NCBI GenBank assembly: GCA_902809985.1
Contig: CADDXC010000001.1
Coordinates: 682,001 to 746,000 of the forward strand
Reading direction: 5' to 3'
DNA: 64,000 nucleotides
Source: Clostridiaceae bacterium BL-3
GTDB lineage: Bacteria > Bacillota > Clostridia > Clostridiales > Clostridiaceae
The translations under genes and the position numbers were made by a program. Position 1 is the stretch's first letter. The number at the start of each line of letters is the position of its first letter. The notes below the pieces were generated by a model. That model saw nothing but the letters and a program-made list of their open reading frames with translations, was not told the origin of the DNA and made no database searches. Of the stretch, positions 44,695 through 57,621 are shown piece by piece.

Positions 44695-44783
44695 AGAGGT
44701 GGATGAAATCTGCTTATTATAAATGTGATCTTAAAATTTTAATTGCAGCATGATTTAATTTTTAATATGCAGAATATTACTCT
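44695..44783 (+). promoter_or_regulatory. rimM leader: strong Shine-Dalgarno 81 nt upstream of ATG with a stem between
   Basis: AGAGGTGG (44695-44702) is the only good ribosome binding site before rimM. The 81 nt after it (44703-44783) contain a long-range stem TCTGCTTATTA (44709-44719) with TAATATGCAGA (44763-44773), ten pairs with one T-T mismatch. A smaller inner stem, AAATGTG with CAT-G-ATTT, lies inside. The ATG itself is preceded by AATATTACTCT, with no complementarity to 16S rRNA. The layout parallels the tsf leader. Confidence 0.6.
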
Positions 44784-45272
44784 ATGAAAAAATTTATAAC
44801 TATAGGGGAAATAATAAATACACATGGAATAAAAGGGGAGTTAAAGGTATATCCGCTGACCGATGATCCTAAAAGATTCAATAAATTGGATGTAGTGTAT
44901 ATAGAGGGAGTACCGAAGAAAATACTTGAATGTAAGTTTCAATCCAACAGAGTTATACTTAAAGTTCAAAGTATTGATTCCATAGAAGAAGCCCTTCCCT
45001 ATAAGGGAAAATACCTGGAAGTTCCAAGAGAGAATGCAGTTGAGCTGAAGGAAGGAACATATTTTATTGCGGATATAATAGGTTGTTCTGTAGTAGATGA
45101 AGAAGGTGTATTTTATGGGAAAGTTGGAGATGTACTTCATACTCACAGCAATGACGTATACTGGATAAAGGGGAAAGATGAACTGCTTATTCCCGCCATA
45201 AAGGATGTAATAGTGAATATAGATGTGAAAAAAGAAGAGATAGTTATAAAGCCGGTGAAAACATGGATGTAA
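44784..45272 (+). CDS. rimM: Ribosome maturation factor RimM
   Basis: A 162-residue protein with the RimM N-terminal barrel ([16 protein letters not shown], residues 7-22) and a C-terminal PRC barrel. It assists 30S head assembly near S19. The ATG at 44784 is the only possible start, since an in-frame TAA lies 21 nt upstream and the homology begins at once. Unlike its neighbours it has no adjacent ribosome binding site. It overlaps trmD by 10 nt. Confidence 0.95.
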
Positions 45273-45991
45273 AGATAGACATACTCACTCTTTTTCCCCA
45301 GATGTTTGATGTATTTAATTATAGCATAATAGGAAGAGCACTCAGAAATAATATATTGAGTATAAATACCATTGATATAAGAGAATTTACTAAGGATAAA
45401 CACAGAAAAGTAGATGATTACCCATATGGCGGCGGGGCTGGTATGATAATGACTGTACAGCCTATTGTTGATTGTATAAAAGAAGTAAAGACTAGAAACA
45501 GTGGGAAAGTTATTTATTTAGGACCTAGGGGAAAAACATTTAACCAATCTATTGCAAGAGAACTTTCAAGAGAAAGTGAATTGATATTTTTGTGTGGGCA
45601 TTATGAAGGAATAGATGAGAGAGTATATAAATATATAGATATGGAAATATCTATTGGTGATTTTGTAGTAACTGGTGGTGAAATGGCATGTATACCAATT
45701 GTAGACAGCATATGCAGAATGATACCTAATGTACTGTCCAGTAAGGAAAGCTATATGGAGGAATCCTTTTACAATGGATTGCTTGAATATCCACAATATA
45801 CCAGACCGGAATGTTTTCAAGGAAACGATGTACCTGAAATTCTCTTATCAGGACACCATGAAAATATAAGAAGATGGAAGAGAGCAAAATCCCTTATAAT
45901 TACCAGAAATAAGAGACCAGATTTATTTAAAAAAATCTCATTATCAGAAGAAGACAAAAAGCTTATCAAACTCTATGATGAAAATAGATAA
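45263..45991 (+). CDS. trmD: tRNA m1G37 methyltransferase TrmD
   Basis: A 242-residue SPOUT-fold methyltransferase with a trefoil knot. Recognisable parts are [19 protein letters not shown] near 54, GPRGKTFNQ near 89, [11 protein letters not shown] near 112 and GDFVVTGGE near 132. It methylates G37 of tRNAs to prevent frameshifting. Its start lies 10 nt inside rimM with a weak GGTGA site, so it is coupled. Confidence 0.97.
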
Positions 45992-46012
45992 TAAATATAT
46001 TTTTAAAATAAG

Positions 46013-46041
46013 TTGAAAATGAAATGCATATGTGTTAAAAT
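46013..46041 (+). promoter_or_regulatory. Promoter for rplS
   Basis: TTGAAA (46013-46018), 17 nt, TAAAAT (46036-46041) with TGT before it (extended -10). Confidence 0.7.
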
Positions 46042-46047
46042 TTGTTT

Positions 46048-46122
46048 GTGCTGCACGAGCGTTCCGCTGTCTGTAAATATGCTGGATAAGAACGTTGAAT
46101 AATTATTAGGAGGTAATGCACA
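46048..46122 (+). promoter_or_regulatory. Structured leader of rplS, candidate L19 autoregulatory element
   Basis: Downstream of the promoter, AGCGTTC (near 46068) can pair with GAACGTT (near 46090), enclosing CCGCTGT and TGCTGG segments, just before AGGAGGT. Firmicutes are known to have an L19 leader that controls rplS by L19 binding; position and compact fold agree, but the consensus was not checked. Confidence 0.5.
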
Positions 46123-46470
46123 GTGTTAGATATAATAAAACAGATAGAAGGTAAACAGATTAGAACAGATTTACCGGATTTTAATGTAGGAGATACGGTA
46201 AAAGTCCACGTAAAGATTAAAGAGGGAAACAGGGAAAGAATACAGATTTTTGAAGGTGTAGTTTTAAAGAGGCAAAATGGAGGAATAAGGGAAACTTTTA
46301 CAGTTAGAAGAGTTGCCTATGGTGTAGGAGTTGAAAGAACATTTCCAGTTAATTCTCCTATAATAGATAAGATACAGGTAGTGAGAAGAGGTAAAGTGAG
46401 AAGAGCAAAATTATACTACTTAAGAGATAGAGTAGGTAAAGCAGCTAAGGTAAAAGAAATATTAAGATAA
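46123..46470 (+). CDS. rplS: 50S ribosomal protein L19
   Basis: A 115-residue L19 with [20 protein letters not shown], the basic [21 protein letters not shown] end, and normal length. It sits at the 30S-50S interface. The start is GTG with AGGAGGT 8 nt upstream. It is a monocistronic-looking unit with its own promoter, leader and terminator. Confidence 0.97.
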
Positions 46471-46497
46471 AAAGGGGCTTTATAAAGTCCCTTTTTT
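46468..46497 (+). terminator. Terminator after rplS
   Basis: AAAAAGGGGCTTT and AAAGTCCCTTTTT form a long stem with a 2-nt symmetric centre, running into the T-tract. Confidence 0.85.
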
Positions 46498-46523
46498 AAG
46501 TATTAAGGTGGTGTAAATTTTTA

Positions 46524-55705: not shown

Positions 55706-55732
55706 TATGAATTAAAAAAATAATTTTTTTTA

Positions 55733-55761
55733 TTGAATAGACATAGTCATTATGATATACT
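55733..55761 (+). promoter_or_regulatory. rpsB promoter
   Basis: TTGAAT (55733-55738), 17 nt, TATACT (55756-55761). Confidence 0.65.
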
Positions 55762-55792
55762 ACAAAAGGTAGTAAAATACACACATTGTCTA

Positions 55793-55826
55793 ATTCATAA
55801 TAAGGTGCCTTTGGTCATTTATGAAT
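55793..55826 (+). promoter_or_regulatory. Hairpin in the rpsB leader
   Basis: ATTCATAA (55793-55800) pairs with TTATGAAT (55819-55826) around a small inner AAGGTGCCTT-type fold. Further down GGAGGTAAAACCT precedes the true AGGAGGG site. Such a ~100-nt leader may let S2 regulate its own operon. Confidence 0.5.
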
Positions 55827-55865
55827 ATGAGGATAATGGAGGTAAAACCTAGGAGGGAAAAATAA

Positions 55866-56570
55866 ATGTCAGTTATTTCTATGAAACAATTATTAGAAGC
55901 AGGTGTTCATTTTGGACATCAGACGAGAAGATGGAACCCTAAAATGGCTCCTTATATTTTTACAGAGAGAAACGGGATCTATATAATAGATCTACAGAAG
56001 ACGGTGAAAAAAATTGAAGAGGCCTATGATTTCATAAAGAAAATTGCAGAAGAGGGAAAGGATATATTGTTTATTGGTACGAAAAAGCAGGCTCAGGAAG
56101 CCATTCAGGAAGAAGCAAAGAGAAGCAATATGTATTATGTGAATAATAGGTGGCTTGGTGGTATGCTTACTAATTTTGTCACTATAAAAACTAGAATAGG
56201 CAAATTAGAGGAACTGGAAAAAATGGAGGAGGACGGTACATTTGAGGTTCTCCCTAAAAAAGAAGTTATAAAATTGAAAAATAAGAAGGAGAAATTGGAG
56301 AAAAATTTGGGCGGAATTAAGAATATGGATGCCAAAAATGTAGGAGCATTATTTGTTGTTGATCCAAGAAAAGAGAGGAATGCTATATCAGAAGCTAAAA
56401 TTTTGGGAATCCCTGTAGTAGCTATAGTTGATACAAATTGTGATCCTGATGAAGTGGATTATGTTATACCAGGAAATGATGATGCTATAAGAGCTGTTAA
56501 ATTGATTACTTCTAAAGTAGCAGATGCTGTAATGGAAGGCAGACAGGGAGAGCAGTTAGCTGAAGAATAG
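55866..56570 (+). CDS. rpsB: 30S ribosomal protein S2
   Basis: A 234-residue S2 with [26 protein letters not shown] at the start (first part [16 protein letters not shown]) and the WLGGMLTNF and DTNCDPD motifs. It binds the 30S platform last in assembly. The strong AGGAGGG site is 7 nt before the ATG. It is followed by tsf after an unusually long 130-nt linker. Confidence 0.97.
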
Positions 56571-56610
56571 TTTATATAATGGAATACAAGAGGATCAAAT
56601 ACAAAAATGT

Positions 56611-56700
56611 GAGAGGAGTTGAAAAAAGCCGCTATATGGCAAGTAATGAACATTGTAAGTCGGCCACATATTTTATGTTTTTAAATAGCGGAATATATTT
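56611..56700 (+). promoter_or_regulatory. tsf leader: Shine-Dalgarno 82 nt upstream of ATG with a stem between
   Basis: GAGAGGAG (56611-56618) is followed by 82 nt before the tsf ATG. CCGCTAT (56629-56635) pairs with ATAGCGG (56685-56691), and inside it TATGGC pairs with GCC-AC-ATA. The ATG is directly preceded by AATATATTT, with no ribosome binding site. Length, ends and fold parallel the rimM leader at 44695. Confidence 0.6.
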
Positions 56701-57621
56701 ATGATAACTGCACAAATGGTAAAAGAACTCAGAGAGAGAACTGGAGCAGGAATGATGAACTGCAAAAAAGCTTTGAAGGAAGCCAATGGTGATACTGAAA
56801 AGGCTATTGAAATATTGAGAGAAAAAGGGTTAGCTGCTGCAGCTAAAAAATCTGGTAGAATAGCTTCGGAGGGGTTGGTTAAAACCTATGTTTCAGAAGA
56901 TGGAAAAACGGCATCAATAGTAGAGGTAAATTGTGAAACCGACTTTGTAGCAGTGAATTCGGATTTTGTAAGTTTTGTGGACAATTTAGCAAAACAGATA
57001 ATCAGTTCTAATTCTTCTACCGTAGAAGAATTACTTAAGGAAAAATATATATTAGATGACAGTAAAACTGTGGGGGAAACATTAATAGCTCTGATTGCAA
57101 AATTAGGAGAAAATATGGCGGTAAGGCGATTTAAAAAGTTTTCTGTTTCCAAGGGATTAATTGAAAGCTACATTCACGGCGGGGGCAGAATAGGAGTCCT
57201 GGTGAAACTGGAGTGTGATAATCAAGACCATATTTTAAAAGAAGTTGCAAAGAATGTGGCTATGCAGATAGCTGCTACAAATCCATTGTTTTTAGATAAA
57301 AATTCAGTAGATGACAATACTCTAAATAAAGAAAAAGACATATACAGAGTTCAGGCATTAAATGAGGGGAAACCTGAAAAAATTGTAGATAAAATAATTA
57401 TGGGAAAAATTCAAAAATATTATAAAGAAAACTGTCTGATTGAACAGATATGGGTTAAAGATTCCGATTTTACTATTGATAAATATATTAAGAATAAATC
57501 GAAAGAAATTGGTGCACCGATAAAAGTGTCTGATTTTGTTAGATTTGAAAAGGGCGAAGGAATAGAGAAGAAAGAAGAAGATTTTGCCGAGGAAGTTCGT
57601 AAGCAGATAGAGAGTAAATAG
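56701..57621 (+). CDS. tsf: Translation elongation factor Ts
   Basis: A 306-residue nucleotide exchange factor for EF-Tu. It has the UBA-like N-terminus ([19 protein letters not shown]), the VNCETDFVA motif near 79 and a [16 protein letters not shown] segment near 157. The ATG at 56701 agrees with the family start. No ribosome binding site is adjacent, unlike almost every other gene here. Confidence 0.96.

Follow-up and report, generated by a model that had tools for sequence, protein, structure and literature searches.

Candidate split ribosome binding sites before tsf and rimM of Clostridiaceae bacterium BL-3 and a clostridial leader family apparently related to RAGATH-18

In the 64,000-nt stretch of the Clostridiaceae bacterium BL-3 genome analyzed here (the window), the genes rimM and tsf are preceded by strong Shine-Dalgarno (SD) sequences which lie 81 nt (rimM) and 82 nt (tsf) before the start codon. 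We consider it reasonably probable that both leaders are split ribosome binding sites (RBS) bridged by a closing helix, and that the tsf leader belongs to a family of RAGATH-18-like leaders and has lost its core. The insert between SD and AUG would fold back through the closing helix (P1) and bring the two together, whereby the distant SD would become usable by ribosomes. The effective gap would amount to about 19 nt for tsf (10 + 9 unpaired nt) and about 16 nt for rimM (6 + 10), in each case plus the width of one helix. P1 is the part common to long and short members of the family and would hold the SD near the AUG.

Architecture and conservation of the tsf and rimM leaders

All features described here are located on the forward strand of the window. 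The tsf SD GAGAGGAG (56611-56618; duplex -14.9 kcal/mol) is followed after 10 nt by the 5′ arm of P1, CCGCTAT (56629-56635). Then come a variable interior (56636-56684) and the 3′ arm ATAGCGG (56685-56691), from whose end it is 9 nt to the ATG of tsf (56701-57621; elongation factor Ts, TIGR00116, E 5.5e-97). Both arms are indicated by the predicted fold and by the models R2 and R3 introduced below, the 5′ arm also by arm co-variation. Seven relatives carry a RAGATH-18-like core in place of the interior, which from this and from the species tree is apparently shrunken. Upstream of the SD stands an altered GGTCAAATA motif, here GGATCAAATA (56592-56601), whose GACC partner is gone along with the core. 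In the rimM leader, the SD AGAGGTGG (44695-44702; duplex -14.3 kcal/mol) precedes a hairpin with the arms TCTGCTTATTA (44709-44719) and TAATATGCAGA (44763-44773), both indicated by fold and co-variation. The 3′ arm ends 10 nt before the ATG of rimM (44784-45272; ribosome maturation factor, TIGR02273, E 7.6e-43).

The positions of both SDs and their distances from the ATG had been given in an earlier note on this DNA and were confirmed, as was the pairing of GC-containing outer arms (TCTGC/GCAGA in rimM, CCGCTAT/ATAGCGG in tsf), which co-vary in the genus. An inner stem with a 3′ bulge, also ascribed to both inserts, does not appear in the tsf fold as predicted, where other short stems are seen. 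As for a shared start of the two inserts, TGAA is indeed present, but it is partly SD flank and occurs as well in the hairpin-less rimM leader of a relative (genome G010).

Close to the start codons, pairing with the anti-SD is weak (-1.4 kcal/mol for rimM, -3.5 kcal/mol for tsf), and there is no usable SD near either ATG. Among 58 non-overlapping window open reading frames (ORFs) of at least 90 codons, the best near-start SD was weaker than -5 kcal/mol in only two, rimM and an ORF at 42253 (-4.4 kcal/mol); tsf is absent from this count because the script picked an internal tsf start. Both leaders thus combine a strong SD beyond normal spacing, with none near the AUG, and a helix between SD and AUG whose conservation is visible in the co-variation of its arms. 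Rfam scans of the window and of both leaders gave no relevant match, and neither leader reached the gathering score of RAGATH-18 (RF03064).

For comparison, 13 genomes of one Clostridium genus were used, including that of BL-3 (G000). At tsf, the order SD, 5′ arm, insert, 3′ arm and ATG is found in all 13, with inserts between 52 and 196 nt: 52-56 nt in G001, G009, G010 and G012, 82 nt in G000, 94 nt in G004, and 168-196 nt in the remaining seven, which hold the RAGATH-18-like core. The outer arms persist while the insert length changes. When the arms of ten sequences (G002, G005 and G006 dropped) were re-paired, only 50 of 20,000 pairings were as good. None of the 20 best-scoring loci from other genera (of 131 matches) has a split tsf leader; all 20 show a normally spaced SD. 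In a species tree from Tsf, EF-P and RimM (outgroups by EF-P and Tsf only), the four species with the shortest tsf inserts form one clade. G000 and G004 are sisters (support 95) and stand next to G007, which still has a long tsf insert. Therefore, the loss of the core from the window tsf leader is most simply placed in the ancestor of G000 and G004.

The rimM leaders show a different distribution. A hairpin between SD and ATG is present in G000, G002, G003, G005, G006, G007, G008 and G011, and a small one in G001; G004 has about 20 nt from SD to ATG, and G009, G010 and G012 lack the hairpin and have normal SD spacing. The stems vary in sequence among species groups while pairing is kept, and 11 of 720 re-pairings were as good, including the observed one. 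This comparison comprised six sequences after removal of the near-identical G003, G006 and G008; G004, G009, G010 and G012 have no comparable hairpin and were not entered. Since the stems differ and yet stay paired, the hairpin looks real and kept, with a history of its own. A search of the BL-3 genome with the rimM insert returned the insert itself as the sole match. The rimM hairpin repeats the architecture of the tsf leader and is best treated as a case of its own. Upstream of it, after a KH-domain gene, lies a hairpin resembling an intrinsic terminator (44592-44622), which by eye recurs in the genus; a separate promoter for rimM is therefore probable, directly ahead of the rimM SD.

A leader family related to the TnpB guide scaffold

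The tsf leader shares its layout with leaders of other genes, namely an optional GGUCAAAUA, the SD, UUGAAAA, CCGUU and AACGG as the outer arms, about 5 to 15 nt, and the AUG. At efp, the module stands between SD and ATG in all 13 genomes, and in none of 17 other-genus loci read (of 132 matches); the efp spacer of G007 measures about 230 nt by eye. A large interior homologous to RAGATH-18 is found in the leaders of efp, cphA, an nfn-like gene and the tsf of seven relatives, and is partly shrunken in aspS. The cphA-like gene was assigned by TIGR02068 (E 1.3e-206 for the portion covered; since the locus is cut, this stays below the whole-protein cut-off). At least efp, cphA, aspS, tsf, rplM and an unnamed gene of 211 aa have such leaders in BL-3 itself. 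Outside the genus, full modules precede hslO (genome G053), a cold-shock gene (G059) and an unnamed gene of 94 aa (five genomes of one genus). Four loci near contig ends (L096, L201, L202, L209) were not used.

In the leaders of rplM, eno, a fumarase-like gene and others, the closing hairpin alone remains. A pattern of SD, spacer and 5′ arm (GGAGNTGAAN{0,4}CCGTT) had 38 matches in the 13 genomes, against three for the reversed pattern, and 28 of 30 loci read stand before an ORF. Eight of these have long inserts (six tsf, two aspS) and 20 have short hairpins, namely six before rplM, eight before an unnamed protein of 205-215 aa, three before eno and three before the fumarase-like gene. Short forms were found in C. 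ljungdahlii, C. ragsdalei, C. tyrobutyricum, C. luticellarii and C. algifaecis. Two short SD-CCGTT...AACGG-ATG leaders (L305, L331) occur in C. tepidiprofundi, which belongs to another genus of the family; the genes behind them we take to be rsgA-like and yicC-like. In a wider scan of contigs, an ORF start lay just downstream in 27 of 80 loci (80 of 100 stretches), and many of the non-clostridial matches look like chance matches inside genes.

The structure was examined in an alignment of 23 core-bearing leaders with eight helices and 42 pairs. In this alignment, 88.8% of cells are paired, compared to 32.5-46.2% in slid controls, and 22 of the 42 pairs changed on both sides, a number that none of 500 shuffles reached. 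Most helices are backed by the alignment. Helix 3, with 50.5% paired, is weak, and helix 7 takes a middle place with 75%.

Membership of the window leader was assessed with three models. R1 matched it with 49.1 bits, which is not independent evidence, since tsf relatives were part of its training. R2, built free of tsf from ten efp, five cphA and two nfn leaders, found all seven long tsf leaders (E 6.4e-30 to 1.1e-25), that of G012 (E 2.1e-4), and the window leader at its exact place (56593-56709; 30.4 bits, E 4.1e-6) as its best match in the window. At E ≤ 0.01 it matched none of 37 tsf and efp loci of other genera (best E 0.07). R3, a short-form model from 19 short forms, had neither the G000 nor the G004 tsf in its training, which did include rplM and one further gene of G000; it found both tsf leaders (E 3.1e-9, again best in the window, and E 1.9e-10). 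By these matches, the tsf leader is a member of a clostridial family with a module between SD and AUG. Neither R2 nor R3 matched any of the 13 rimM leaders.

The core of the long tsf inserts also had matches elsewhere in the genus and a single one outside it, and RF03064 was over its cut-off in eight of 13 such loci. When the genus was searched with RF03064, every one of the 13 genomes had a match at E ≤ 1, and 12 had one over the cut-off; of 14 control genomes, two had matches, none over the cut-off. The loci occur in two settings: some follow IS607 TnpB genes, and others lie in the SD-ATG interval of unrelated genes. By our reading, 17 of 29 over-cut-off matches are in leader position (three of the 17 by efp coordinates or analogy), and efp and cphA leaders of several genomes pass the gathering score. 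Because the Rfam model fails on a long tsf leader (see below), homology was tested with R1 to R3. R2 matched three TnpB-linked loci, L068 (E 4.4e-19, model positions 42-201), L070 (E 1.1e-18, 41-201) and L069 (E 1e-18, 29-226), which ties the leaders to the TnpB guide scaffolds; the R1 and R2 matches to such loci mostly span model positions of about 37 to 201, without the SD and AUG parts. RAGATH-18 has been described as the scaffold of the IS607 TnpB guide RNA, and in the survey reported there 64% of RAGATH-18 RNAs adjoin IS607 TnpB (PMC11061315, consulted in part), so that stand-alone copies had already been counted. By the models and the alignment, the leader modules are homologs of this scaffold. 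The parts of the open-licence PMC literature covered, to which the original RAGATH description does not belong, yielded no placement of RAGATH-18 in an SD-AUG spacer, and novelty is unproven.

Two further observations concern the distribution of these RNAs. BL-3 has 18 TnpB zinc-ribbon matches and a single RF03064 match, the cphA leader; its TnpBs therefore presumably use another RNA type. The locus L095 (G007:C3:137010-137077) is a RAGATH-18-like leader of 35.8 bits, below the cut-off, with GTTAC/GTAAC arms; the ORF behind it is nucleotidyltransferase-like and may start with TTG.

Possible origin and function of the modules

IS607 elements insert at GG, according to the parts of PMC4227781 consulted. 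Left flanks of IS607 copies end SD-like in L156 (GGGGAAGG), L157 (GGAGG), L161 (GGAGG) and L165 (GGGGAGG), the left boundary of L161 and L165 being set by likeness to L156 and L157. L160 has a left flank ending in AAGAGGTG. In L157, L160, L161 and L165, a start codon follows shortly past the right end; with L156 included, all five copies hence have an SD-like G-run on their left, and four of them a start codon on their right. L158 and L159 do not fit an SD-like flank, L162 is ambiguous, and L163, L164 and L167 have no usable left end. With such flanks the SD is a plausible IS607 target, and the GG target of these copies is apparently the SD itself. At their right boundary the leaders have AACGG, as does IS607 at its right end (L070 and L097 both read GTTTACGTAACGG), and the leader arm AACCGTTA agrees with the left end AACAGTTA in seven of eight letters, by eye only. 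The family probably goes back to IS607-type elements that inserted at GG within SDs and then lost tnpA and tnpB. The efp module is kept in G004, G010 and G012, where no PF07282 (TnpB) hit was obtained, and therefore needs no resident TnpB of that family. As a side observation, a skipping-rope RNA (RF02924, E 3.8e-17) occupies L161:1286-1364, the same stretch as the IS607 element there.

The earlier note had considered an RNA module inserted at the RBS, possibly mobile or regulatory, and had proposed a search for further copies. For tsf, a structured module and copies elsewhere in the genome were found, and a mobile source is likely. The leaders of hslO (L200) and the cold-shock gene (L208), which differ in gene and genus, are identical over 30 nt from GGTC up to and including the SD, and this suggests that a cassette including the SD may move.

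A pairing across the SD distinguishes the leaders from the IS607 copies. All 23 aligned core-bearing leaders allow the GGUC ahead of the SD to pair with a GACC in the core. By script, GACC or GGCC stands at the core position in 40 of 41 leaders, and the one missed (L222) shows GGACC by eye; GGTC stands upstream in 39 of 41, with a further GGTC seen by eye in L208 outside the scanned stretch. These counts left out L084 (5′ end replaced), L095 and second copies of efp loci. GACC was absent from all 18 IS607/TnpB-type loci, which represent 13 places, and one of these places (L069/L161) has an upstream GGTC; ten of the 13 coincide with PF07282 hits, and L089, L213 and L214 are IS607-type by sequence only. 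The pairing hardly varies, so that the evidence for it is co-occurrence and not co-variation. The motif GGTC is kept in a short TOBE leader (L226) and not in six short tsf leaders; the tsf leader of BL-3 has GGATC and no core, and thus lacks the GGUC:GACC pairing. As this leader-only pairing spans the SD, intact modules may also regulate translation.

A more far-reaching reading, which we regard as possible rather than probable, is that a TnpB guide-RNA scaffold was domesticated as a translational control module inside the RBS of EF-P, EF-Ts, AspRS, cyanophycin synthetase and other genes. The module would carry or capture the SD and switch translation by the closing helix and an SD-straddling pseudoknot, and decayed copies would be SD-bridging hairpins before ribosomal-protein and glycolytic genes.

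Alternative explanations and known systems

Several results weigh against the bridging of split sites and the family assignment proposed here. The looped-out spacings sum to about 12 to 25 nt by eye, compared to the usual 5-10 nt. Single-sequence tsf folds are no more stable than shuffles, with z -0.07 for the insert, +1.37 with flanks, and +0.30 for the leader L007; the rimM values (-1.47 and -1.46) are not unusual either. P1 is absent from the minimum-energy folds of the efp leader L146 and of the tsf leader L007, where only the centroid shows it. In the 23-leader alignment, the structure was written from one row, and of the five co-variation measures, that of further pair types fails to beat the shuffles (345 of 500). 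R2 misses four of six short tsf leaders (G001, G004, G009, G010) and all four short-hairpin loci given (rplM twice, eno, TOBE), and four of the R3 training sequences are tsf leaders of relatives (G001, G009, G010, G012). What links the short forms to the family is chiefly P1 and the flanking sequence, and core-less matches depend in part on the context of SD and ATG. Even at E 10, the Rfam RAGATH-18 model did not match L005, a long tsf leader. The direction from IS607 to leader is not proven. Finally, the likeness between the rimM and tsf inserts goes beyond shuffles and is not explained by separate origins.

This likeness speaks for the proposal of the earlier note that rimM and tsf carry two copies of one element. 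Against dinucleotide shuffles, the two inserts align such that 0 of 2000 (global) and 17 of 2000 (local) were as good, and 6 and 221 of 2000 with the ends trimmed; rimM inserts of relatives also resemble the window tsf (13 of 1000 shuffles as good for G007, 3 of 1000 for G005), and the architecture is identical in kind. The likeness therefore exceeds AT-rich chance; common descent is not thereby shown, though the two inserts may have a very diverged common origin. Further genome copies, which the note had also asked for, exist for the tsf family and not for the rimM insert. The family models that find the window tsf miss every rimM leader, the rimM inserts of G011 and G003 are not like the window tsf (515 and 552 of 1000 shuffles as good), and three genomes lack the rimM hairpin, so that we consider two copies improbable. 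Somewhat less doubtful, although still unlikely, is that the inserts are neutral debris, i.e. tolerated IS607-type insertions whose hairpins are terminal repeats without selection on pairing. The right boundary AACGG common to TnpB-bearing copies, the IS607 copies at SDs and the greatly varying insert length fit such debris; the compensatory arm changes, the efp module kept in 13 of 13 genomes and the rimM arms that stay paired despite different sequences do not.

It is also conceivable, at a tentative level, that intact modules are primarily cis-regulatory switches responding to a protein or ligand, with a fold that hides or exposes the SD and with bridging as a secondary effect. This would suit the leader-only pairing over the SD, the conserved core with a k-turn, which RAGATH-18 contains (PMC8191799, seen in part), and the several translation genes among the targets (efp, tsf, aspS, rplM), but the core is missing from the tsf leader of BL-3 and from the rplM, eno and fumarase-like leaders, and enolase, Hsp33, a cold-shock protein and cyanophycin synthetase are among the targets as well. 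Very improbable is removal of the insert as a mini-intron of the IStron type, by which SD and AUG would be joined. IS607-type IStrons with group I introns are known from clostridia (PMC4227781, in the parts seen), yet the rplM-type loops of a few nt are far too small for a ribozyme, and Rfam group I intron models gave no match in 19 tsf and rimM loci (E 0.5), three IS607 loci (E 0.5) and 13 others (gathering score). We give even less credit to the idea that the distant SDs serve leader peptides. The first codon of both inserts could serve as a start and is followed by an open frame (ATG AAA TCT..., 16 codons, in rimM; TTG AAA AAA..., 21 codons, in tsf), but this codon touches the SD, and in relatives the frame is short or lost, with for example four codons in G012 tsf, nine in G003 tsf and three from a GTG in G007 rimM.

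If the leaders are indeed split sites, SD spacing rules would be bypassable by folding, which calls for caution in gene finding and expression design. In the sources covered, split RBS are described for two phage genes, whereas here they would recur within a genus of cellular organisms, in front of housekeeping genes and with spacers that reach about 200 nt. Since intact copies hold the fold of a transposon nuclease guide, they would represent a route from mobile-element RNA into translation control. Among known systems, RAGATH-18 (RF03064, the reRNA) shares core, hairpins and the right end AACGG with the leaders, which in turn differ by the absence of a TnpB gene, the position between SD and AUG and the GGUC/GACC motifs. 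For the split sites of phage T4, PMC3014915 refers to Nivinskas (1999) and to Malys and Nivinskas (2009). In T4 genes 38 and 25, structure shortens the spacing from 22 to 5 nt and from 27 to 11 nt and aids initiation (PMC3014915, as far as consulted). The clostridial leaders resemble them in that the SD is too distant and RNA structure in between would shorten the effective spacing. The T4 structure, however, is a small tested hairpin in a phage gene, while the putative clostridial sites involve many cellular genes, spacers of up to 196 nt (tsf) and a conserved multi-helix module. IS607-type IStrons likewise have IS607 parts, GG targets and clostridial hosts in common with the leaders (PMC4227781, same parts), and differ in the group I intron, for which the leaders gave no match in the scans made.

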